Source: Candidatus Woesearchaeota archaeon (GTDB lineage: Archaea > Nanobdellota > Nanobdellia > SCGC-AAA011-G17 > JAGVZY01). From it: a stretch of DNA of 42,906 nt. The position numbers and the translations under genes are program-made. Shown here in pieces: positions 3,562-42,417 of this stretch (the stretch's first letter is position 1; every line of letters starts with the position of its first letter). The stretch lies in assembly GCA_018302225.1 (NCBI GenBank), contig JAGVZY010000015.1:1-42906 (forward strand), given 5' to 3'. The notes under the pieces are model-generated. The model searched no databases. It was not told the DNA's origin and saw only the letters and a program-made list of their open reading frames with translations.

Positions 3562-4398
3562 ATGGACCATATATTATACTATAAAAAGGTCTGTGAGAAA
3601 TTAACAGATTTCTTAGATAAAAAACCTTTAGCAACAAGAATATGGATCCCAGCAGGACCTAAATTATTAAAGCGTGGTTCGAAAAATGGAATTATTTATG
3701 CAAAAGATGTTGTTGAATTAACAAATAAAAAATTCTTAGACGCAAGAAAAGAATTTTTACATCTCAAAGATGCAAGAAGTTTACTTACTAAAAAACAAGA
3801 ATCGCTTTGGAATTATTTTGTTCCAAGAAAAAACATGGATTTATTTTATTCTACAAATGGTGAAGGTTATGAAAAGCCCTTAGATAGAATTTTCATTGAT
3901 ATAGACAGACACAATCTTCCTGCTGAAAAAGCACAAATTGTTGCAAATGAATTAATTAAAATAATAGATTCAGATTCAAATTTTCCTATAAATTATAAAA
4001 AATTCTTTATGTGGACAGGTTCATCATTTCATATATATTTGTTATTAAAAGATAAAGTAGAACACGAATTTTATGAAGACTATTTATCTTATAATAATAA
4101 ACACCCATTAAAAAGTTTTACTGGAAAGTGGGCTGCTTTGATAAAGTCAAAAACAAAAATAGATGTTTTTGCAGGACATGAAAAATTTCCAAATAAAATT
4201 AATTTGGATCCTTCACAATCTGTTTCAGGCAAATTAGCAAGAGCACCTTATTCTTTACATATGAAAGATGCTTTAACTGTGGATGGAATTGCAGTTCCTT
4301 TAAAACAAGACCAATTGCAAGATAAACATTTATTAAAAGACCTAAAAAAGCTCAATCCTGAGAATATATTTGACTCTGAATACTTTAAAAAGGTTTAA
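3562..4398 (+). CDS. Archaeo-eukaryotic primase superfamily protein
   Basis: The 278-residue protein shows the three signature elements of the AEP (PrimPol/LigD-like) fold. A metal-binding DID occurs in RIFIDIDRH, a nucleotide-contacting serine-x-histidine in TGSSFHIYLLL, and a basic segment SGKLARAPYSLH follows, corresponding to the R-x-P-x-S-x-H region of small primase subunits. A further acidic residue in KIDVF may be motif III. It is shorter than a canonical PriS and no zinc motif is visible, so a stand-alone primase-polymerase or repair polymerase is possible. It follows ychF by about 30 bases with its own TATA box (TTTATATATTC). Confidence 0.7.
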   Translation: MDHILYYKKVCEKLTDFLDKKPLATRIWIPAGPKLLKRGSKNGIIYAKDVVELTNKKFLDARKEFLHLKDARSLLTKKQESLWNYFVPRKNMDLFYSTNGEGYEKPLDRIFIDIDRHNLPAEKAQIVANELIKIIDSDSNFPINYKKFFMWTGSSFHIYLLLKDKVEHEFYEDYLSYNNKHPLKSFTGKWAALIKSKTKIDVFAGHEKFPNKINLDPSQSVSGKLARAPYSLHMKDALTVDGIAVPLKQDQLQDKHLLKDLKKLNPENIFDSEYFKKV

Positions 4399-8382: not shown

Positions 8383-8419
8383 TTTTTTAAGCTTTATATT
8401 ATAGCGGCCAGTATTTTAA

Positions 8420-9885
<1,466 letters not shown>

Positions 9886-9989
9886 TTTTTATTTTTATAT
9901 CATAATAAAAAAATATTTTTAAATGAAATTCAAACTAAATGTTACTATAAGGTTTTTATAACGCTCAAACTACTCATCACAAAAAAAAT

Positions 9990-10120
9990 GGGCTCGTAGC
10001 GTAATGGTATCGCACCACCCTTGCATGTTAAGAATCGCAAGATTCTCAAAGACAGGTGGGGGTTTCGGGTTCAAGTATAATTTGCCTAAAAGCATTTTAT
10101 TGAGAATCCCGACGAGTCCA
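9990..10120 (+). tRNA. tRNA-Ala (anticodon UGC) with two introns
   Basis: It occupies the 16S-23S spacer, the usual place for archaeal tRNA-Ala. The acceptor is GGGCTCG/CGAGTCC, discriminator A. The anticodon stem CCACC/GGTGG encloses CTTGCA plus A38. A 28-base intron (10026-10053) sits after position 37 and folds as GAATC-GCAA-GATTC. A second insertion of 31 bases (about 10075-10105) interrupts the T loop: TTCAA before it and AT after it restore TCGGG-TTCAAAT-CCCGA, and TCAA/TTGA pairing with short flanking bulges resembles a bulge-helix-bulge. Removing both leaves exactly 72 bases. The T-loop junction is ambiguous by two bases because TTCAAGT is also a possible loop. Confidence 0.88.
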
Positions 10121-10339
10121 TTTCATACTTTTTAAAATCAAATCTTTGAGAAAAATTTGCAAATTTATTTGCAGACAACTATTCAATCAAGAGATTGTTT
10201 AGTGAAGAACCGAGATGTGAATTACAATTTAAAATCGGAATTTTAAAATTGTATCTTTGCTCTGAATGTTAAAATAAAATAAAAAAAATATTTTAAAATA
10301 TTTTTCATAAAAATTTTAATTCATATTCATATTGATGAG
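10121..10339 (+). other. tRNA-Ala to 23S spacer
   Basis: No gene is seen. The spacer holds several hairpins: TGCAAAT/ATTTGCA near 10158, CAATC-AAGA-GATTG near 10184, and a long AT-rich stem ACAATTTAAAAT with AATTTTAAAATTGT near 10222-10252. These are likely precursor-processing or folding elements. Confidence 0.5.
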
Positions 10340-10356
10340 GCCATTCATAAATTAAT

Positions 10357-10361
<5 letters not shown>
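10340..10361 (+). other. 23S processing stem, 5' half
   Basis: GCCATTCATAAATTAAT (10340-10356) is the perfect 17-bp complement of 13565-13581, and the adjoining AGTGG pairs with CCACT at 13557-13561, with three extra bases on the 3' strand. The helix-bulge-helix form matches archaeal pre-23S excision sites and sets the approximate ends of 23S. Confidence 0.75.
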
Positions 10362-13562
<3,201 letters not shown>

Positions 13563-13581
13563 AAATTAATTTATGAATGGC

Positions 13582-13809: not shown

Positions 13810-14895
13810 TTACTCTTCACCTTGCATTTGTATCAGTTCAATTGCTTGGTTATAATTTTGTTTTAAAAGCTCTTCCATTCCCTTGATAACTCTCTGAGCT
13901 CGTTCTTGATTTCTATTTACCAAACTTTCAGAAGATTTAGAATAACTATCAGTTAGTTCTTGCATTTGTTTATTATATTTTTCATTTGCAGCGTTCATAG
14001 CAGTTTTTGTTTCAGAAATTCTTTTGCTTAAATTAATTACATTTTTTAGAGCCTGATTATATAATTTATCTCTAGTTGCATCTGTATTATTTATAATATC
14101 TATTTCAACCATTTTTTCAATATTATCAACAAGCTGATTTTCATATTTTGCAAGAACATCAATATCTTTAAGATAATCCTTTCTTGTAGTTTTGAGCTCT
14201 TTTAAGAACTTTTCATATTTTTTCTTTAATTTATCTTCAGAATTAGAATAAATAAATTCTATTTGATCTCTCTTTTGATCAATAATCTTCAGAGCAAGTT
14301 CGTAATAATTCATAGCTTGTTCAACTTTAAAATTATTATTCTTACTTGATTTAGAATCCAAGATATTTCGGTATTCTTCCTCTACTTTCTTTTCAATATC
14401 AGATTTATCTAATTTTTTATCCAAATCTTTTCTATTTATCTCATTTATTTTTAGATAATCTATAATTGTAGTTTGGGGAGATTTTATATCTTTTATTTTT
14501 TCTAAATTTTCTTCATAAAACTGATTCATTCTATTTTTATTAAATTCAACTTCCCTATTAATGGCTTGTTTAGTTAATTTACATATTTCTTTTTTATTTG
14601 CCAGCACATATTGAGCAATTTCTTTACTTAAAACACCTTTATCCAACTTTCCCCAGGTATAATCAAAACCTACTACAAACTTAGAAATTTCTTCCTCTGA
14701 ATAGCCTATTGATTTTAAGAATAATAAAGCACTTTTTTGAAAGCTATAATCTTTTATAGTATTTCTATCAAAACCCTCAGTAGAGTATTCTTTAATTTCT
14801 GCAGGTTTAGTTTTTTTGTCTGCAGCATAAGCTGTTCCACCAAGAAGAAAGATTAATGCAGCACCATAAGTCGCTATCTTTGAAGGTTTATTCAT
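13810..14895 (-). CDS. Exported coiled-coil protein
   Basis: The ATG at 14895 gives MNKPSKIATYGAALIFLLGG followed by TAYAAD, a clear secretory signal peptide with a likely cut after AYA. An in-frame TTG at 14913 is less likely because the TATA box TTTTAAAAGG lies about 25 bases before the ATG. The mature part of about 335 residues is almost all helical and highly charged with heptad-like patterns, e.g. DKLKKKYEKFLKELKTTRKD and RISETKTAMNAANEKYNKQM. No enzyme motif is visible. It may be a cell-surface or periplasmic structural protein. Its gene is the first past the rRNA operon, converging on it. Confidence 0.8.
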   Translation of the reverse strand: MNKPSKIATYGAALIFLLGGTAYAADKKTKPAEIKEYSTEGFDRNTIKDYSFQKSALLFLKSIGYSEEEISKFVVGFDYTWGKLDKGVLSKEIAQYVLANKKEICKLTKQAINREVEFNKNRMNQFYEENLEKIKDIKSPQTTIIDYLKINEINRKDLDKKLDKSDIEKKVEEEYRNILDSKSSKNNNFKVEQAMNYYELALKIIDQKRDQIEFIYSNSEDKLKKKYEKFLKELKTTRKDYLKDIDVLAKYENQLVDNIEKMVEIDIINNTDATRDKLYNQALKNVINLSKRISETKTAMNAANEKYNKQMQELTDSYSKSSESLVNRNQERAQRVIKGMEELLKQNYNQAIELIQMQGEE

Positions 14896-14969
14896 AGCCT
14901 TTTTAACCCTCAAAACCTTTTAAAACTTTCCAACTTTATTTAAATAGTTTATAAAGCTCTCTTTTAAAC

Positions 14970-15736: not shown

Positions 15737-16603
15737 ATGGAAAAGAGGGAATTAAATAGACTTCTTAGTGAAATTTCTTTAGTTTTAGCTGCTTTTTTCT
15801 TTCTGAATACTTCAACAAATATTACAGGCAGTTTTATAGGTGTTTCAATACCTGCTACTGCAAGCTCTTTATTTTCACTAGCTTTTCTTTTGCTTTCTAG
15901 TTTGTTTTATACTTCAACTGCTCCAAAAGCACCACTTGAAGATTTAGTTAAATCTGAATTTAATTTAGCTAACGAAATGGCTAATTTAACAGCAGGGGAA
16001 AAAATAATTTATATTTTAGATAGCTCAGCGATTTTTACTTATTCAGAAAATACTCAAAAATTATTAACTCTTTTAAATACTAGTAAAGGTAATTTCTACA
16101 TAACAAAATCTGTTTTAAATGAAGTACACGATTATCCTACCAAATCTATATTAGAAAAAAATGTAATAATCTTAGATAAGATTGAAAAAGATCCCAATAA
16201 TTATAAACATTGCATAGATTGGGCCCAAAGTTCTTTAGAAGGAACTATTAAAAATGAAAATTATCTCATAGCAAAAGAATTTATTCAAACAGGAAAGCCA
16301 CCAAAAAATCTAGATAATACTAAAATGAATCAAATAATTAAAACTGTTAAAACTATACAAAAGAATGCTAGACCCGGAGAAACGATTACTAAAGATTATA
16401 TTCTTAAAAAACTGGATCAAAATTATGGCCTTTCAAATACAGACGCAGACATATTAGCTGAAGGAATTTATTTTGCAGGACAAAATATTAATGTGGTTAT
16501 TTTAAGTAATGATAATCATTTAAAGCAAGCTGTTGAAAATTTAAATAAAAAAGGAAATAGAAATGTTCATTATCTGCCCACATACACACAAGCAGTAGCT
16601 TAA
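15737..16603 (+). CDS. Membrane-anchored PIN-domain nuclease
   Basis: The N-terminal 60 residues contain two membrane helices (about 9-29 and 40-60: SLVLAAFFFLN and ATASSLFSLAFLLLSSLFY). A cytoplasmic PIN domain follows with the acidic set expected for metal-dependent RNases: Asp in YILDSSAIF, Glu in VLNEVHDY, Asp residues in LSNTDADILAEG and Asp in ILSNDNHLKQA. The domain order Asp...Glu...Asp/Asp...Asp matches Nob1/VapC-like PIN proteins. No antitoxin gene is adjacent, and membrane anchoring argues against a standard VapC toxin. A TATA box (TTTATAAAC) lies about 25 bases upstream. Confidence 0.85.
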   Translation: MEKRELNRLLSEISLVLAAFFFLNTSTNITGSFIGVSIPATASSLFSLAFLLLSSLFYTSTAPKAPLEDLVKSEFNLANEMANLTAGEKIIYILDSSAIFTYSENTQKLLTLLNTSKGNFYITKSVLNEVHDYPTKSILEKNVIILDKIEKDPNNYKHCIDWAQSSLEGTIKNENYLIAKEFIQTGKPPKNLDNTKMNQIIKTVKTIQKNARPGETITKDYILKKLDQNYGLSNTDADILAEGIYFAGQNINVVILSNDNHLKQAVENLNKKGNRNVHYLPTYTQAVA

Positions 16604-17112
16604 ACAAGTTTTAAACTTTTAAATTCATATCTTACTTTAATTTGATCTATTTTTTCTTTAAATAAATCTAAGGAGCCTCCTGGGAGATATTTTAAATCTG
16701 CCCTATCTATATTTATTGGACCATGAGTTCCAGAAAGGTGATAAGCATCTAAGAGTGTAGATCTCACAACTTTATTTTCTCTAAGGGTTGAATCTTTTTG
16801 AAGATTTCTGATTAAATAATAATTTAATTTACCTTCAGAATATCTATACAGCTTAGAAATTGTATTTATGTAATCAGAAGTAGATTCAAATTGTTGGTTT
16901 AACATAAGACCCAAATTAAACCCCTTTTCATCTTTTGCAATTTCAACTAAATAATCAAGTTCTTCATCATTAAATGTGTGATTATAAAAAAATAAATTAT
17001 TAAAATCACCTCTTTTCTCGTCTTGAAATTTTTTAAATCCAAAAGTTAATATAGACTTCTCTGAACTAACAATTTCTTTTTTTATATCATCTAAAAATAT
17101 TATCTCACTCAT
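16600..17112 (-). CDS. Hypothetical protein, 170 aa
   Basis: No family is recognised. It is a soluble acidic protein without a signal peptide, rich in aromatic residues (FFYNHTFNDEELDYLVEIA). The C-terminal region holds HLSGTHGPINIDRADL, which looks conserved. Its end overlaps the convergent PIN gene by four bases, and it starts one base beyond the stop of the upstream lytic transglycosylase gene, so it is almost certainly co-transcribed with that enzyme and may be a partner or immunity-like factor (inference). Confidence 0.65.
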   Translation of the reverse strand: MSEIIFLDDIKKEIVSSEKSILTFGFKKFQDEKRGDFNNLFFYNHTFNDEELDYLVEIAKDEKGFNLGLMLNQQFESTSDYINTISKLYRYSEGKLNYYLIRNLQKDSTLRENKVVRSTLLDAYHLSGTHGPINIDRADLKYLPGGSLDLFKEKIDQIKVRYEFKSLKLV

Positions 17113-18051
17113 TTAAATTTCCCCTGATAGAGATTCAGCAATATTTCCAACATTTCTTATATATTCATCAGATCTATTATATTTTCTAACAACCTTCCAA
17201 TTAGGATTATTGGGATGTAAAGGCTCACCATTTAAATCCGAATTCCATCCATTATCCGCAAGATATTTTGCAGAAGCATGTATTGTCTTCTTTATATTCC
17301 AAATATCGCCATCAGGATAATATTCATTTGCTGTGCTTGGAAGATACTGTCCAAAACCAAAACAACCCATATAGGAAGAAGGTATATCATTTAGTCTATA
17401 AGGCGGTATTTCTGCTTTCTTCCCAAATTTAAGTAATTCTGATAACTCTCTGATTGCAAAGTTTTTTTTAGTTGGTTCAAATTTATACAAAGATAAAAAA
17501 ACATTTACAGGCCTATGATTCCCAATATAATTTGGATTACCATATTTTGTTTCAATTCCTACAATTCCAACTAAACATCTATAGTCAACACCCAATTCCG
17601 CTTCAGCTTTTTTAAGTTCAGGTTTATACTTATTGACAAAACTCTTTAAGTTTAAATTTTCTAGTTTAAGATTTTTTGCTTGATAATATTCAAGATATAA
17701 ATTTCCAAAACTATTATCAAAATTTGGTTTCTTTTTTTGCTTCAAGAGTTTTAATCTACTTTTTTTAGGAGCATACAAATCAAAATCAATAGCTTTATTA
17801 GAAAGAAGTAAGTGTACTTCATAAGGATCATGACCGAAATCTTTTACTAGTTTATTCATTACTTCATTAATAGTTTCATCTAACCCATTAATAAGGTGAA
17901 GATCTCTATTCTGTAAAAAGTTGTACATTCCTACACTTTTTACCTGACGATTATTTACTTTTTGTTCACTTACTTTATTAGGCATATAATTTCCTGCTAA
18001 AAAATAAGCAGATAACAATACTACCATTCCATTTTTTAATATTTTATTCAT
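17113..18051 (-). CDS. Exported MltB-type lytic transglycosylase
   Basis: The 312-residue protein has an N-terminal membrane/signal segment (about 8-21, GMVVLLSAYFLAG) and a C-terminal SLT_2/MltB-like domain from about residue 135. The catalytic glutamate is E167 in VGIVGIETKYG, equivalent to the GVETxxG motif of MltB. GCFGFGQYLPST (229-240) matches the GxxGxxQFxPS motif. YYPDGDIWN and ASAKYLADNGW follow in family order, and the C-terminal KYNRSDEYIRNV matches the Y-N-x-S-x-x-Y substrate-groove motif. Such enzymes cleave the MurNAc-GlcNAc bond of murein. Archaea lack murein, so the target is presumably bacterial. It sits directly upstream of the 170-residue unknown gene in one transcript. Confidence 0.85.
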   Translation of the reverse strand: MNKILKNGMVVLLSAYFLAGNYMPNKVSEQKVNNRQVKSVGMYNFLQNRDLHLINGLDETINEVMNKLVKDFGHDPYEVHLLLSNKAIDFDLYAPKKSRLKLLKQKKKPNFDNSFGNLYLEYYQAKNLKLENLNLKSFVNKYKPELKKAEAELGVDYRCLVGIVGIETKYGNPNYIGNHRPVNVFLSLYKFEPTKKNFAIRELSELLKFGKKAEIPPYRLNDIPSSYMGCFGFGQYLPSTANEYYPDGDIWNIKKTIHASAKYLADNGWNSDLNGEPLHPNNPNWKVVRKYNRSDEYIRNVGNIAESLSGEI

Positions 18052-18560: not shown

Positions 18561-19712
18561 ATGAAAAGAAATTTATTTATAGCAATTGAAGGATGTGATG
18601 GTGCCGGTTCTTCTACACAGGTAGGTGCATTAAAGGATTTATTAAACCTAACAGGAAGAAAAGCTTTCGAAACAAAAGAACCAACAAACAATCTTGTTGG
18701 CGGATTGATTAGAGGTGTATTAAGAAAAAACTGGAAAATAGATCCAAAGGGTTTTCAGTTATTATTTGCTGCAGACAGATCACATCATTTAGATGATGAA
18801 ATTCTACCAACCTTGCAAAAAGGAAATATTATTACAGATAGATACTTTTTTTCAACAATAGCTTATGGTTCTTTAGATGCGGATATTTCATGGCTAAAAA
18901 GTTTAAATAGTTATTTTAGAACCCCTGACGCTACATTTATAATTGATGTCCCACCAGAAGTATGTATAGAAAGAATCAAAGCTTCAAGATCTTCTATGGA
19001 GTTATTTGAAGAAAAAGAAAAACTTTGTAGGGTCCAAGCAACATACCATATCCTCGCAAAACAATTTCCAGGTGTATATCTCATTGACGGAAATCGCAGT
19101 AAGGATGAAATTCTAAAAGAAATTTACGCGACTTTAAAACCTTATTATCATAAAAATATTATTGCTATTTCAGGACCACCTGGTTCAGGAAAAGGATCAT
19201 TTGCAGAAAAATTAGCAGAAAAAATAAGTTACACACATTATTCTATAGGCGAAATAAGAAGAAAAATGGCTAAAGAAAAAGGAGTTCCTTTAGCAGAATT
19301 AAATAAAATAGGTGAGCATGAAGCTTATACAGATAATGATGCAGACGCCTATATGCAAAAGTTGGCTCAAGAAGAAGATAATTTTATTGTTGATGGAAGA
19401 CTTTCTTATTTTTTTATACCTTATGCACTCAAAATATTTTTAGATGTAGATCCTAATGAAGGAGCTAAACGTGTTTTTGAAGCAGGAAGATCAGAAGAAA
19501 AATTTAAAAGTATAGATGAAGCGAAAATGGCAATTGAGGATAGAGCTACATCAGATGCAAGGAGATATTACAAATGGTATGATATTGAAAATGTTTATTC
19601 AAAGTCAAACTTCCATTATATCATAGATACAACAAAATTAAGTGTGGATCAAGTAATAAACAAAATAACAGATGAAATACTTCCAAAGCACGAAATTTAT
19701 AAAATTAGCTAA
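18561..19712 (+). CDS. Thymidylate kinase-cytidylate kinase fusion
   Basis: Two nucleotide-kinase domains are joined. Residues 1-195 resemble dTMP kinase: AIEGCDGAGSSTQ P-loop, TKEPT, FAADRSHH and the DRY motif ITDRYFFSTIAYG. Residues about 197-383 resemble archaeal CMP kinase: ISGPPGSGKGSFAEKLAEKI, YSIGEIRRKMA and FIVDGRLSYFF. The first P-loop has serine in place of the usual lysine (GAGSST rather than GAGKST), while the second keeps its lysine. Together with UMP kinase nearby this covers pyrimidine monophosphate phosphorylation. A TATA element TTTTAAATAA lies upstream of the ATG at 18561. Confidence 0.9.
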   Translation: MKRNLFIAIEGCDGAGSSTQVGALKDLLNLTGRKAFETKEPTNNLVGGLIRGVLRKNWKIDPKGFQLLFAADRSHHLDDEILPTLQKGNIITDRYFFSTIAYGSLDADISWLKSLNSYFRTPDATFIIDVPPEVCIERIKASRSSMELFEEKEKLCRVQATYHILAKQFPGVYLIDGNRSKDEILKEIYATLKPYYHKNIIAISGPPGSGKGSFAEKLAEKISYTHYSIGEIRRKMAKEKGVPLAELNKIGEHEAYTDNDADAYMQKLAQEEDNFIVDGRLSYFFIPYALKIFLDVDPNEGAKRVFEAGRSEEKFKSIDEAKMAIEDRATSDARRYYKWYDIENVYSKSNFHYIIDTTKLSVDQVINKITDEILPKHEIYKIS

Positions 19713-19882: not shown

Positions 19883-20833
19883 ATGCGTTACGAAAAACAA
19901 GTTATATTTGAAAGAATAGGCCAAAAAGGACAAGATTTTCTAAGTAAGGCACATGTCTGTATAGTTGGTTTAGGTGCTTTAGGCTCATATACTTCTAATT
20001 TCTTAGTAAGAGCAGGAATAAACAAATTAACTTTAATAGATAGAGATGTTATTGAAGAATCCAATTTACAGAGACAAAATGTTTATGGCGAGCAAGATAT
20101 AGGCAGACTAAAAACCGAAGTACTAACAGAAAAACTTTTACAAATAAACTCAAAAATACAAATAAAATCTTACTTTGCAGATTTAACTCATAAGAATAGT
20201 TCTTTATTAAAATCAGATTTAATCTTAGATTGTACAGATAATATGGAAACAAGATTTCTAATTAATGACTTTGCATTAAAAAATAATATCCCCTGGATAT
20301 ATTCTGCAGTTTTAGGTTCAGAAGGTATGGTCATGAATATTATTCCCAAAAAAACACCTTGTTTTAGATGCATATTTCAACCACCAACATCTCAATTGGG
20401 AACTTGCGACACAGAAGGAATAATTAATACAATACCTGCAGCAATCTCAGCACTACAAGTAACAGAAACAATAAAAATTATCACAAAACAAGCTTATTCA
20501 AAAGAATTAATTCATTTCGAAATATGGAAAGGCAAACTTTCTAAAACTAAAACAAAAAAATTACAAAAATGTCCTGCTTGCTCAGGAAATTACGAATTTC
20601 TTAATGGAGAAAAAGCAACAGATGCAATAAAATTATGTGGTGTCGGCACTTATCAAATTACCGGACCAAAATTAAATCTTACAAATCTTTCTAAAAATCT
20701 TCCAAATGCAAGAAAAATGGATTCTTACGTAAATTATAATAACAATATTTTCTTTGAAGATGGTAGGGTAATAATAAAAGCCAAATCTCTAGAAGAAGCT
20801 AAATCTATTTATTCTAAATATATAGGTAATTAA
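19883..20833 (+). CDS. E1-like adenylyltransferase (ThiF/MoeB/TtuC type)
   Basis: The 316-residue protein carries the E1 fold: VGLGALGSYTSNFLVRAGI nucleotide loop, LIDRDVIEESNLQRQ (Asp and Arg finger), DCTDNMETRFLIND, and two CxxC zinc pairs (CFRC and CPAC). A candidate catalytic cysteine is in GTCDTEGI. A short C-terminal extension with a VNYNNNIFFEDGRV segment follows the zinc site. Such enzymes adenylate the C-terminal Gly-Gly of ubiquitin-like sulfur carriers. The carrier at 24594-24809 and TtuA at 24811-25734 are the obvious partners, although Rel and TrmA-like genes lie between them. Confidence 0.88.
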   Translation: MRYEKQVIFERIGQKGQDFLSKAHVCIVGLGALGSYTSNFLVRAGINKLTLIDRDVIEESNLQRQNVYGEQDIGRLKTEVLTEKLLQINSKIQIKSYFADLTHKNSSLLKSDLILDCTDNMETRFLINDFALKNNIPWIYSAVLGSEGMVMNIIPKKTPCFRCIFQPPTSQLGTCDTEGIINTIPAAISALQVTETIKIITKQAYSKELIHFEIWKGKLSKTKTKKLQKCPACSGNYEFLNGEKATDAIKLCGVGTYQITGPKLNLTNLSKNLPNARKMDSYVNYNNNIFFEDGRVIIKAKSLEEAKSIYSKYIGN

Positions 20834-22746
20834 CTCAGTTCAATTGAAACAGTTTTAACACTTTTTATCTTTTCCAATCTTTTAATTAGCAACTTTAACT
20901 TATTTAAATTTTCAACCAAAACACCAAAATAGCAAGCCACAGTCTGATTTCCAGAGTTTTTAGCTTTAGCAGAATCTATATTCAATTTCATAGTCGTAAT
21001 TACATTTAACAATTCAGTTAATATTCCTACTCTTTCATTAGCTAAAACTTTTAAATTAACAATCCCTTCAATAGCCTCTGCCCAGTCTACTTTAATTTTA
21101 TCAGAATTTCTTGAACTTTTTATACAACCTTTTTTATGAATAGTTAACTTTCCTGTTCCAGCTAGAAATCCTTCAATTAAGTCTCCAGGTAAAGGATCAC
21201 AGCAAACAGCAAGTTTAATTGAAGCAACAGGAAAATTAGTATTAAGATTAAACAAACTAAATTTTCTTTTAACAGGAATTTTAACTCTTTGGGCATTAGT
21301 AGGTATATTACTAGTCGCTCTTATTGTACTATTAATTTTACTTCTTGCTTTACTTGTAATTACAAATTTTAACCAATCTCGATTAGGTTTATGATTCTTA
21401 GAAGTAATAATCTCAATAATATCTCCATTTCTTAGAGTATGTGATATTCCATAAAAAGAATCATTTATTTTTGCACCTGTACATCTATCACCTATTGTAC
21501 TGTGGATGGCATATGCAAAATCAACAACTGTAGAGTCATGTGGAAGTTCAATTAAATCTCCATTTGGAGTAAACACAAATATTAAATCTTCAAATACTTC
21601 TATTTTTAGATTCTTTGTAAATTTTTTTTCACTTTTTAATTCTCTCTGCCAATCCAATACTTGTTTTAACCATTTTATTTTATCATCTATTTCAGAGTCT
21701 TTTACATTCTTATAACTCCAATGTGCAGCCAAGCCATGTTCTGCAATTTCATGCATTTCTCCAGTTCTTATTTGTATTTCTAAAGGATTTCTAGAATAAT
21801 TTATTCCAATATGGATGCTTTGGTAACCATTTTTTTTAGGCTGAGCAATGTAATCTTTTAATCTTCCAGGAATTCCATTCCATTTTTTAGTAATTAAGTC
21901 TAAGGCTTTATAAGTATCTTTAATATCTTTTGTAATTATTCTTATTGCAAACAAATCATAAATTTTGTTTAAATCATCAATTTTTCCATGTATTTTTTTA
22001 TAGACACCATAAACCTCTTTTTGCCTTCCATACACTTTAGCGTCTATATTTTGCTGTTTAAGTAATTCTTTTATGTCTAATATTGCCCTTTCAATCACCT
22101 GTTGGCTCTTATTTTCCTTTCTTCTTATTTTTCCAACTAATTCAGAATATTCTTTGGGATATAAATTTTTAAAAGCTAAATTTTCAAGCTCATGCTTTAG
22201 ATTTATTATGCCTAGTTTGTAAGCCAGAGGAGCGTAAACATCCAATATTTCTTGAGATATTCTCTTTCTACTTTCTAAGTCCAAGTATTCTAATGTTCTT
22301 GCATTATGTAGTTTGTCTGCAAGTTTAACAAATATTACTCTTATATCCCTTACAGACGACAAAATAACTTTTCTTACTTTTTCAGCCGCCCATTCATGCT
22401 TACTTAATTTTTTTGCAGAAGCATTTTTTACTTTTTTTAGCAAAGTGACTCCTTCAACAAGTTCATAAACTTTTTCTCCAAACTTTTTTATTTCATCTAT
22501 TTTTGTTGAAGTATCTTCTAAGGTATCATGTAATAAACCTGCAACAATTGTCTCGGGGTCTAATCCTAAATCTGCTAAGATTAAAGCTACATTATAAGGG
22601 TGTATAAAAAAATCTTCTCCAGAAACCCTCTTTTCACCAGAGTGCTTTTCTTTAGAAAAATTATAAGCTTCTTCAATTAAACTTAAATCCTCTTTTGGAT
22701 AATTCCTTCTTACTTTATCCAATAAAATCTTTAAATCTATATCCAT
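20830..22746 (-). CDS. rel: Bifunctional RelA/SpoT-type (p)ppGpp synthetase/hydrolase
   Basis: The 638-residue protein has the full long-RSH order. The HD hydrolase domain (HPYNVALILADL, GLLHDTLEDT, KLADKLHNARTL) is intact. The synthetase domain has DLFAIRIIT, LKDYIAQPKKNGYQSIH and EIQIRTGEMHEIAEHGLAAHW. A TGS domain (FVFTPNGDLIELPHDSTVVD) follows, then a conserved CC-containing segment (KLAVCCDPLPGD) and a C-terminal ACT domain. Start chosen at the ATG at 22746 because a TATA box (TTTATAAACTT) lies 25 bases upstream; an in-frame TTG is four codons earlier. Long RSH enzymes are bacterial and only scattered in archaea, so transfer is likely. It overlaps the convergent E1 gene by four bases. 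Confidence 0.93.
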   Translation of the reverse strand: MDIDLKILLDKVRRNYPKEDLSLIEEAYNFSKEKHSGEKRVSGEDFFIHPYNVALILADLGLDPETIVAGLLHDTLEDTSTKIDEIKKFGEKVYELVEGVTLLKKVKNASAKKLSKHEWAAEKVRKVILSSVRDIRVIFVKLADKLHNARTLEYLDLESRKRISQEILDVYAPLAYKLGIINLKHELENLAFKNLYPKEYSELVGKIRRKENKSQQVIERAILDIKELLKQQNIDAKVYGRQKEVYGVYKKIHGKIDDLNKIYDLFAIRIITKDIKDTYKALDLITKKWNGIPGRLKDYIAQPKKNGYQSIHIGINYSRNPLEIQIRTGEMHEIAEHGLAAHWSYKNVKDSEIDDKIKWLKQVLDWQRELKSEKKFTKNLKIEVFEDLIFVFTPNGDLIELPHDSTVVDFAYAIHSTIGDRCTGAKINDSFYGISHTLRNGDIIEIITSKNHKPNRDWLKFVITSKARSKINSTIRATSNIPTNAQRVKIPVKRKFSLFNLNTNFPVASIKLAVCCDPLPGDLIEGFLAGTGKLTIHKKGCIKSSRNSDKIKVDWAEAIEGIVNLKVLANERVGILTELLNVITTMKLNIDSAKAKNSGNQTVACYFGVLVENLNKLKLLIKRLEKIKSVKTVSIELS

Positions 22747-22821
22747 AGGTTTAATCAATAACCCAAGTTTATAAATTTTCTTTTTGGAAATCTTTTTAAG
22801 CTAACCCATAAATTTTAAGTT

Positions 22822-36038: not shown

Positions 36039-37022
36039 ATGAACAAAAAACTAATTTCATTATTATTAACTGGATTTCTTAGTATATTTCCTTATAGGGA
36101 TAGCCTAGCTAAATCAAAAATTGTCTCAAAAAATTTAATCAAACCTTCTTACAATTTTAAACATAAATATTTAAGACCGGACTATATCTTTTACAATTTA
36201 GGTATATATTATAGTGATAATTCTGTATCTGCAAAAAATAGATTTGGTATGGTGGTTCACAGAACAGAACTAAATGACACCTTAAGTTTAAAAGTTTTAA
36301 TTAGAGATCAAAGTGCAAACTATTTAATTATGAACAATGGTGATTTAAGAATTATAATTCCACCAAAATACAAATCAAACCATGCAGGATTTAGTATGTT
36401 TAACGGATTTGAAGAAAGATGTTTAGGAACTCTTGATGAAAGATTAAAAAATGAATTTTCTTTAAATATGACTTTTATTGGCGCAGAATTAAGTGGAAAT
36501 TGTAAATCTAATCCAACTAATGCCCAATATAAAACCTTAGAAAGATTAAAAGAACAACTTCAAGAAAGATATAAATTTCCAGATTATTTAGTAATTGGGC
36601 ATGGCATGGCTTCTTACACAGGAGATCCAGATAGCAAATATCATCATCAATTAGGAAATCATACTGATCCTGGAAAACATTTTGATTGGAGTAAAATTGG
36701 AATAGATATAGAAAGAACAAATTTAGATTTGATTCTTGAAAGAGTTAAAAGTCCTAAAACTAAAATTAAATCTTATTCTACTCAGGAATTAGTAGAATTA
36801 TTAAAAACAGTTCCAAATAATTATAATTTTGAAATAGTTAAAGAAAGTACAATTCAAAATACAAAAATCAAAATAGTTTCACTTTCAGATTTGGCTCATA
36901 ATCCCTCTAACTCTTACAATTTTAGCAAAGCATCAAAATGCAAACACTTTTTAAGTAATTTTGAGAGCATAACAAAAACAAAACTAAAAAGAAATCCCAC
37001 TTATAATTTATTTATCAGATAA
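36039..37022 (+). CDS. Exported N-acetylmuramoyl-L-alanine amidase (Amidase_2 type)
   Basis: The 327-residue protein has a signal peptide (MNKKLISLLLTGFLSIFPY, cut probably after SLA near residue 24). The amidase domain, about residues 65-225, shows the zinc ligands of the AmpD/T7-lysozyme family: H74 in MVVHRTE, H188 in VIGHGM, and D210 in HTDPGKHFDW, plus the conserved H-A-G (SNHAGFSMF, H115) and the E in FIGAELSG. It should cut the bond between MurNAc and L-Ala in murein. The C-terminal 100 residues form a separate, unrecognised region that may bind the substrate. It is monocistronic and upstream of tRNA-Ser on the other strand. Confidence 0.85.
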   Translation: MNKKLISLLLTGFLSIFPYRDSLAKSKIVSKNLIKPSYNFKHKYLRPDYIFYNLGIYYSDNSVSAKNRFGMVVHRTELNDTLSLKVLIRDQSANYLIMNNGDLRIIIPPKYKSNHAGFSMFNGFEERCLGTLDERLKNEFSLNMTFIGAELSGNCKSNPTNAQYKTLERLKEQLQERYKFPDYLVIGHGMASYTGDPDSKYHHQLGNHTDPGKHFDWSKIGIDIERTNLDLILERVKSPKTKIKSYSTQELVELLKTVPNNYNFEIVKESTIQNTKIKIVSLSDLAHNPSNSYNFSKASKCKHFLSNFESITKTKLKRNPTYNLFIR

Positions 37023-41156: not shown

Positions 41157-41405
41157 ATGAAAAAAAGAAAAAATGAAGAAGAATATGAAATAAAATGGTG
41201 GAAAGATTGGTTAGAAGCCGATTTATTAGAAAAAGAAAAAATGGTGGAAAAATTGCCAATAGTCAATGAAATGTGTGATTTTATTCACTGGAAAAAGATC
41301 CCAAATAAGATAAGAAAACATCTTTTAGTTATAACCCTAAATGGCTTTTTTGAAGATTTAGAAAGCGCAATGTATACAAAAATGCGCAATGAAAAGAAAA
41401 GATAA
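41157..41405 (+). CDS. Small basic protein overlapping a Fic gene, 82 aa
   Basis: The protein is helical and highly charged, with tryptophans near the N-terminus (YEIKWWKDWLEADLLEKE) and a DFIHWKKIPNKIRKHLL segment. No family is recognised. Its last 17 bases overlap the Fic gene, so translation is coupled. Such a pairing is seen in toxin-antitoxin loci, but the Fic protein carries its own inhibitory motif, so the small protein need not be an antitoxin. A TATA box (TTTATAAAAAATAAAC) lies about 25 bases before the ATG. Confidence 0.65.
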   Translation: MKKRKNEEEYEIKWWKDWLEADLLEKEKMVEKLPIVNEMCDFIHWKKIPNKIRKHLLVITLNGFFEDLESAMYTKMRNEKKR

Positions 41406-42417
41406 TTTTGTAGTCCCAAAAATAGAAACATTTAAATATGTAGTCACCCATTATATTCTTATGAACATAGAAAAGAGGAAATTTGGAAAGAAGATTAAGT
41501 ATTACTTATCTTATTCGTATAGAGAGGGTCTTAAAACCTATAAGCTCAGAAAATATCTTGGCCATGATTTAACTAAAGAGAAACTCAAAGAAAGAGTACA
41601 AATAGCAGAAAAACTAATTTTAGAAGAAATCCATAAATATAATATTATTAAAGACCCATTACAGTTTGAGCTCTCTAAGGAAGAAATTCTCTTAATAAAA
41701 TCATTAGAAAAACAAATCCCCTTAAAGATATCTCATTTATCTGAGCAAGACTGGAAAAACTTCTCGGAATTATTTACTTATAATACTAATGCTATAGAAG
41801 GCAGTAAATTAAATCAAAAAGAAGTAAAGAATTTATTAGAAGAAGACAAATGGCCTGATAAATCTAAAGAGGATATTGCTGAAGCCTATGGTGTAGAAGA
41901 AGCTATAAGATTCATCCGTGGAACTAAAGAACACATTTCCCTTTTTTTAATTAAGAAAATTCATAAAATTGTGTTTAAGAATTCAAAACCTTTTTCAGGA
42001 AAACTAAGAAAAAAAGGAGAAGAAGTTGTTGTCTTAGATGCCAATAGAAATATTATTCATGAAGGTGCGCCACAAGCAAGAATAACAAATTTGCTTAAGA
42101 GTTTAGTTAATTGGTATGAATTAAATAAAAGTAAATATCCTGCTTTGGTTCTTGGAGCAGTTGTTCACAACCAATTTGAAAACATACATCCTTTTGCAGA
42201 TGGTAATGGTCGGGTGGGAAGAATATTATTAAATAATATTTTAATTAAACATAATTTACCTCCAATTAATATAACCTTCAAAAATAGAAAAGAATATTAC
42301 GAATCACTCCGAGCTTATGAATTAAATAAAGATTTAAAACCCACTATTCAATTTTATATTAATCAATACAAGCAGTTAGAAAAAGAATTGGGTGACCACA
42401 AAAAGAGAGAAAAGTAG
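41389..42417 (+). CDS. Fic-domain AMP-transferase, self-inhibited class
   Basis: The 342-residue protein contains the complete Fic motif HPFADGNGRVGR (about 267-278), with the catalytic histidine and phosphate-binding glycines and arginine. An N-terminal inhibitory helix motif TNAIEGS (133-139; [S/T]xxxE[G/N]) is present, so this is a class II enzyme held inactive by its own Glu. The first 110 residues form a separate helical region with YSYREGLKTYKLRKYLG, a basic motif seen in archaeal Fic proteins. It transfers AMP to a target protein hydroxyl; the target is unknown. It is coupled to the 82-residue gene. Confidence 0.92.
   Translation: MKRKDNFVVPKIETFKYVVTHYILMNIEKRKFGKKIKYYLSYSYREGLKTYKLRKYLGHDLTKEKLKERVQIAEKLILEEIHKYNIIKDPLQFELSKEEILLIKSLEKQIPLKISHLSEQDWKNFSELFTYNTNAIEGSKLNQKEVKNLLEEDKWPDKSKEDIAEAYGVEEAIRFIRGTKEHISLFLIKKIHKIVFKNSKPFSGKLRKKGEEVVVLDANRNIIHEGAPQARITNLLKSLVNWYELNKSKYPALVLGAVVHNQFENIHPFADGNGRVGRILLNNILIKHNLPPINITFKNRKEYYESLRAYELNKDLKPTIQFYINQYKQLEKELGDHKKREK

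Follow-up and report, generated by a model that had tools for sequence, protein, structure and literature searches.

The window analyzed here, by which we mean the whole stretch of 42,906 nucleotides, carries a gene for a compact lytic transglycosylase of the SLT_2 (MltB) type. We consider it likely that this enzyme is exported or surface anchored, that it cuts bacterial murein by means of Glu167, and that, together with at least three other murein-active enzymes, it belongs to a murein-free DPANN archaeon. That it is exported and active, that its substrate is bacterial, and what it does ecologically are inferred rather than observed directly. The features on which this reading is based are compiled in Table 1.

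Pfam SLT_2 (PF13406) covers residues 130-272 of the 312-aa open reading frame (ORF) with 89.6 bits (E 2.7e-25), which exceeds the gathering cut-off of 24.3 bits and places the product in this superfamily. A Pfam scan of the protein at E values up to 0.01 retrieved SLT_2 alone and no cell-wall-binding domain. All NCBIfam MltB models scored well under their cut-offs, the MltB equivalog TIGR02282 with 78 bits against a cut-off of 281. In the PDB, phmmer found as the best solved relatives Pseudomonas SltB1 (5o8x, 4anr; E 1e-12) and E. coli Slt35 (1qus; E 2e-10), together with a lytic murein transglycosylase B (9vlr). The N terminus comprises two lysines and then a hydrophobic core with a Kyte-Doolittle value of 2.36 over 11 residues (maximum of 1.35 elsewhere in the protein), which is consistent with a signal peptide or an anchor. 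The initial annotation had described an enzyme with the MltB catalytic glutamate, a GxxGxxQxxPS motif, a C-terminal tyrosine motif, and an export signal, and all of these were recovered: (i) E167 aligns with the glutamate of Acinetobacter baumannii MltB, (ii) QYLPS is intact in motif II (GCFGFGQYLPST), (iii) YNRSDEY is intact in motif IV, with Tyr263 also kept, and (iv) from the hydropathy of its lysine-preceded N terminus, the protein is apparently exported.

Table 1. Positions of the transglycosylase gene, its motifs, and related features. Coordinates refer to the window unless a contig is named.
Feature	Position	Strand	Description
Compact SLT_2 (MltB-type) lytic transglycosylase	17113..18051	-	312 aa; Pfam SLT_2, TIGR02282, PDB relatives
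Codon of catalytic Glu167 (GIETKYG)	17551..17553	-	Aligned with A. baumannii MltB Glu129
Motif II GCFGFGQYLPST	17332..17367	-	Residues 229-240; alignment
Motif IV YNRSDEY	17161..17181	-	Residues 291-297; alignment; directly downstream of motif III
Predicted N-terminal export signal or anchor, positively charged and hydrophobic	17986..18051	-	Residues 1-22; hydropathy
Orphan soluble protein	16600..17112	-	170 aa; starts directly after the transglycosylase stop codon
Amidase_2 protein (N-acetylmuramoyl-L-alanine amidase-like), predicted to be exported	36039..37022	+	327 aa; PF01510 E 2.4e-13; AmpD model E 2.3e-10
Tandem-SLT protein	Contig C18, L053 1-1815		At least 604 aa; two SLT domains; open at contig start
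Cytosolic Amidase_2/PGRP-like protein	Contig C10, L105 4782-5222	-	146 aa; 84.6 bits
Archaeal SSU and LSU rRNA genes, complete	8419..13567	+	Rfam RF01959 1375 bits, RF02540 2444 bits

The active-site groove was compared with that of A. baumannii MltB, using the residue numbering and the list of active-site residues of its structure paper (PMC13134497). In the alignment, Glu129 corresponds to E167, Ser183 to S226, Gln192 to Q235, Phe193 to Y236 (aromatic in both), and Tyr227 to Y263, and within motif IV, Tyr313, Asn314, and Tyr319 correspond to Y291, N292, and Y297, respectively. Two groove residues were changed, namely, Arg155 to K195 and Thr311 to R289. The archaeal protein thus shares with the family-3 lytic transglycosylases (GH103: E. 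coli MltB/Slt35, P. aeruginosa SltB1, and A. baumannii MltB) the SLT_2 domain, the catalytic glutamate, the Ser/Gln/Tyr/Asn/Tyr residues of the groove, and, as predicted, export, but it is only about 25% identical to them, falls under the NCBIfam MltB cut-off, and lacks both an alpha/beta domain of about 65 residues and the Asp ligands of the EF-hand. In SltB2 this domain spans residues 227-291, and the same paper defines the EF-hand-like Ca2+ site of the family (PMC12547810). In the 312-aa protein, the bacterial DxDxDG of this site is replaced by PDGDIW. An intact DxDxDG loop was absent from all 10 aligned DPANN proteins, and the alpha/beta domain, which precedes motif IV, was missing in the 10 DPANN proteins compared. 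Since this domain is absent, motif IV follows right after motif III, and 62 residues separate motif II from the YN pair. This spacing is 52-68 residues in the six DPANN proteins that match the motif pattern, whereas canonical forms from bacteria have 119-135. Some of the bacterial proteins sampled (L060 and, in part, L054) also lack most of the alpha/beta domain yet keep the EF-hand, and the double loss is therefore a hallmark of the DPANN proteins in this sample. The paper on SltB2 suggests that the EF-hand contacts PBP2 (PMC12547810), and an organism devoid of PBP2 would presumably not need it; A. baumannii MltB bound no metal (PMC13134497).

Structure prediction, which the initial annotation had called for, gave matches to MltB-type folds. 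The AlphaFold model was built from five sequences only and is of modest confidence (pLDDT 66, pTM 0.59), with a helix at residues 2-21, a low-confidence stretch at residues 20-44, and residues 225-251, around and after motif II, unresolved. The top seven Foldseek matches of this model were all family-3 lytic transglycosylases (E 6e-7 to 7e-5, TM 0.40), separated by a wide gap from the next match (E 0.66). The model supports an MltB-type fold class for the 312-aa protein, but its quality does not suffice to demonstrate the groove.

Three further genes for putative murein hydrolases, which the initial annotation had not noted, were identified in the genome. The 327-aa amidase encoded in the window has a signal-like N terminus by hydropathy, which predicts its export, and likely zinc ligands (H74, H188, and D210) were read from its sequence. 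The tandem-SLT protein has the catalytic Glu in both of its SLT domains, again as read from the sequence; its gene lies next to archaeal genes for TFB and ribosomal protein S8e and to one for an LSm protein, all likewise named from their sequences. The contig of the 146-aa amidase also carries SecY-like and primase-like genes, and this cytosolic enzyme possibly processes imported muropeptides. By their sequences, the genome would contain at least four murein-active genes, two for cutters of the glycan strand and two for amidases. Anhydro-muropeptides are the products of lytic transglycosylases, and AmpD-like amidases remove the peptides from these products; the set is thus functionally coherent. 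As also proposed in the initial annotation, the other contigs were searched for murein synthesis genes. Neither Mur_ligase_M nor Transpeptidase had a match in the genome, whereas of 14 control genomes, 12 had the former and 10 the latter. On these two family searches (Mur ligase and penicillin-binding transpeptidase), the archaeon appears unable to make murein.

In the mechanism that we propose, Glu167 would cut the MurNAc-GlcNAc bond of bacterial murein and probably leave 1,6-anhydro-MurNAc ends. The 312-aa enzyme and the tandem-SLT protein would cut the glycan strand, the exported and the cytosolic amidases would cut the stem peptide, and with all four enzymes the archaeon would breach and break down the walls of the bacteria on or beside which it lives. 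This would serve entry or attachment, and food. The most likely role is thus predicted to be lysis of, or feeding on, bacterial murein. The initial annotation had reasoned that the enzyme should act on bacteria in competition, feeding, or attachment. Action on bacteria is retained as the best reading, given the three further hydrolase genes and the lack of matches to Mur ligase and transpeptidase genes, with the reservation that domains of the canonical enzymes are missing; competition, feeding, and attachment are not separable from sequence data.

To place the enzyme among its relatives, we determined the distribution of the three catalytic families. Of 371 genomes sampled from the phylum, 13 had an SLT_2 match above the family cut-off and were spread across many families of the class, and among 145 genomes of relatives from the order and class, only the genome that contains the window had such a match. 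In the 371-genome sample, SLT was found in 168 genomes (45%) and Amidase_2 in 40 (11%); at least one of the three families occurred in 185 genomes and all three in four, the source genome included. Amidase_2 was more common in genomes with SLT_2 (5/12 versus 35/359; Fisher P = 0.005), three of the five positives belonging to one genus, and the co-occurrence of SLT_2 and SLT was not significant (8/12 versus 160/359; P = 0.15). Genome G302 was left out of both tests, since its SLT_2 match lies within an SLT protein. Pattern scans of genome contigs retrieved no match in one case and four loci in another, the alignment being too divergent for such scans. In a related archaeon (L003 1-2865, genome G121), we observed an Amidase_2 protein that is at least 955 aa long, bears a signal, and also matches SLT_2 weakly within its chain.

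The nearest relative of the 312-aa protein is that of genome G234 (36% identity over 200 columns), and in an alignment of 11 proteins, the other DPANN homologues were 19-32% identical to it. The 283-aa homologue of G225, a genome of the same class, is the same protein as that of 'Candidatus Woesearchaeota archaeon nzgw53' (L044), and the window thus belongs to the class that includes Woesearchaeota. E167, Y291, and Y297 were invariant in the 11 aligned DPANN proteins, Q235, N292, and S226 were nearly so, and a hydrophobic N-terminal segment was present in all 11. Invariance of E167 among proteins this divergent indicates that the active site is under selection; loss of the glutamate in homologues, which would have spoken against the enzyme, was thus not observed (11/11 keep it). 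The gene neighborhoods of the DPANN homologues differ, except for three genomes of one genus (G213, G250, and G271) with common neighbors. In the phylogenetic tree, ten DPANN proteins split from 34 bacterial proteins with bootstrap/SH-aLRT values of 99/96, and of 100/94 after poorly filled columns were dropped. The comparison with bacterial homologues that had been suggested initially therefore separates the DPANN proteins, at 99-100% bootstrap, from a bacterial side that is mostly Pseudomonadota; with its long branches and this sampling, it names no donor.

The patchy distribution also fits a different reading, in which the enzyme is secreted solely as a weapon that kills competing bacteria, with neither attachment nor feeding, in the manner of the haloarchaeal peptidoglycan hydrolases, since such a pattern has been read as the trace of an arms race (Strock et al. 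2025, PMC12352652). We regard this as unlikely, because the enzyme has no cell-wall-binding domain, Gram-negative targets would be shielded by their outer membranes, and a second amidase in the cytosol is more readily explained by the processing of fragments that have been taken up than by killing.

Still less probable is a switch of the enzyme to a glycan other than murein, such as the surface glycans of the archaeon itself or those coating a host that is also an archaeon. The long branches, the missing alpha/beta domain, and the R155K and T311R changes would be in keeping with a new substrate, but every other murein-contacting residue compared is kept and muramoyl amidases, for which we know of no archaeal substrate, co-occur with the enzyme. 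The bonds of pseudomurein are beta-1,3 and are not cut by lysozyme-type enzymes, which argues against pseudomurein as the target, as does the near absence of such enzymes from pseudomurein makers (Strock et al., PMC12352652). We give little credence to a third possibility, a catalytically feeble adhesin that retains the groove to bind murein during attachment to a bacterial host. Attachment has been proposed for related large proteins of Pacearchaeota and Woesearchaeota (Castelle et al. 2021, PMC8204110), but nothing would prevent a protein that only binds from losing the catalytic Glu, which is invariant in all aligned homologues.

Bacterial contamination, an assembly chimera, or a provirus gene is very unlikely: SLT_2 is mainly bacterial and exceeds the cut-off in none of the order and class relatives searched, but complete archaeal rRNA genes lie on the contig, 4-9 kb from the transglycosylase gene, the near neighbors are an archaeal-type UMP kinase and a DUF357 protein, G+C content (0.285) and codon use resemble those of the flanking genes, the form of the enzyme is the compact one of DPANN proteins, and scans of viral contigs confirmed no relative. 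The codon log-likelihood of the gene is -0.80 per codon, and most genes of the window range from -0.68 to -0.88. On the rRNA, neighbors, G+C content, and codon use, we consider the gene resident in the archaeon and not very recently imported. The chimeric contig that the initial annotation had named as a possible refutation was accordingly not found. As to a viral origin, no PHROG murein family matched, and the few matches in phage records (26-32% identity) were labeled bacterial mltB or were unannotated. The source genome (814 kb in 21 contigs) is 99.4% complete with 0.8% contamination.

Several other observations were made in the window. A group I intron lies within the archaeal 23S rRNA gene (12294-12535, +; Rfam 60.9 bits), and a single ORF (18561-19712, +) fuses a thymidylate kinase to an archaeal-type cytidylate kinase. 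Full-length RelA/SpoT-type proteins are uncommon in archaea, and one with HD, synthetase, TGS, and ACT domains is encoded at 20830-22758 (-), above the TIGR00691 cut-off. The remaining observations are a Fic-domain protein (41389-42417, +; PF02661 E 1.1e-17), a protein with a LigD primase-polymerase-like domain (3562-4398, +; E 8e-9), and a protein with an AYA|A-type signal sequence and a long charged body, probably coiled-coil, that has no family match (13810-14913, -).

The orphan gene that abuts the transglycosylase gene is co-oriented with it, and its ATG directly follows the TAA stop codon; because of this junction, the co-transcription stated in the initial annotation is very likely. The 170-aa orphan protein had no match in Pfam, NCBIfam, or PHROG, only chance-level matches in 378 genomes of the class, and no N-terminal signal segment by hydropathy, and its single-sequence structure was unusable (pLDDT 43). 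We considered it as the immunity protein of a toxin-immunity pair and rejected this candidate, as it lacks a signal segment and resembles neither a known inhibitor nor any other protein. The suggestion that it might protect the cell thus found no evidence, and immunity would be superfluous in a cell without murein. Its orientation and position point to no more than a cytosolic role within the operon.

For most DPANN archaea, an archaeal host is usually assumed rather than known. The idea that DPANN archaea degrade bacterial murein has been published: (i) large proteins with murein transglycosylase domains in Pacearchaeota and Woesearchaeota led Castelle et al. (2021, PMC8204110) to suggest that the hosts are bacteria, (ii) Vigneron et al. 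(2022, PMC9723730) took genes for GH23 enzymes and pore-forming toxins as signs of vampirism, and (iii) in the survey of Strock et al. (2025, PMC12352652), about 5% of archaeal genomes had modular peptidoglycan hydrolases, two of which, from haloarchaea, were shown to kill bacteria. The general claim is therefore not new. The fam00969 proteins of Castelle et al. and the GH23 proteins of Vigneron et al. share with our enzyme a murein lytic domain, a murein-free DPANN host cell, and the proposed bacterial target; however, the former, of up to 3,000 aa, and the latter, of the SLT type, both resemble the tandem-SLT enzyme of the genome, whereas the 312-aa protein is small and of the SLT_2 type. 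The hydrolases of Strock et al. are likewise archaeal, patchy, and often exported, and are prominent in Nanoarchaeota, but their definition requires both a catalytic and a cell-wall-binding Pfam domain, and the single-domain 312-aa protein, without the latter, therefore falls outside it. What appears to be new is the compact SLT_2 form without an EF-hand and the four-gene set in one genome, neither of which was named in the literature searched, which excluded most subscription journals.

Murein-hydrolase families occur in about half of the sampled genomes of the phylum, and SLT (45%) and Amidase_2 (11%) each in far more than the 5% published for all archaea under a stricter definition that requires a wall-binding domain. 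Four murein-active genes with two complementary chemistries in a murein-free archaeon make a bacterial partner or prey of this lineage a concrete and testable hypothesis, and these genes provide targets for work with purified enzymes. We tentatively propose, as a possibility well short of the basic reading, that the DPANN transglycosylase lineage shed the EF-hand, which is suggested to tether the bacterial enzyme to the machinery of murein synthesis, and the alpha/beta domain, and so became a pure enzyme of attack or feeding. With the exported amidase, the tandem-SLT protein, and the cytosolic amidase, it would form a complete murein-digestion kit of an archaeon that lives on bacteria. The domain losses would then illustrate the reduction of an enzyme with a housekeeping task in bacteria after its release from wall synthesis.
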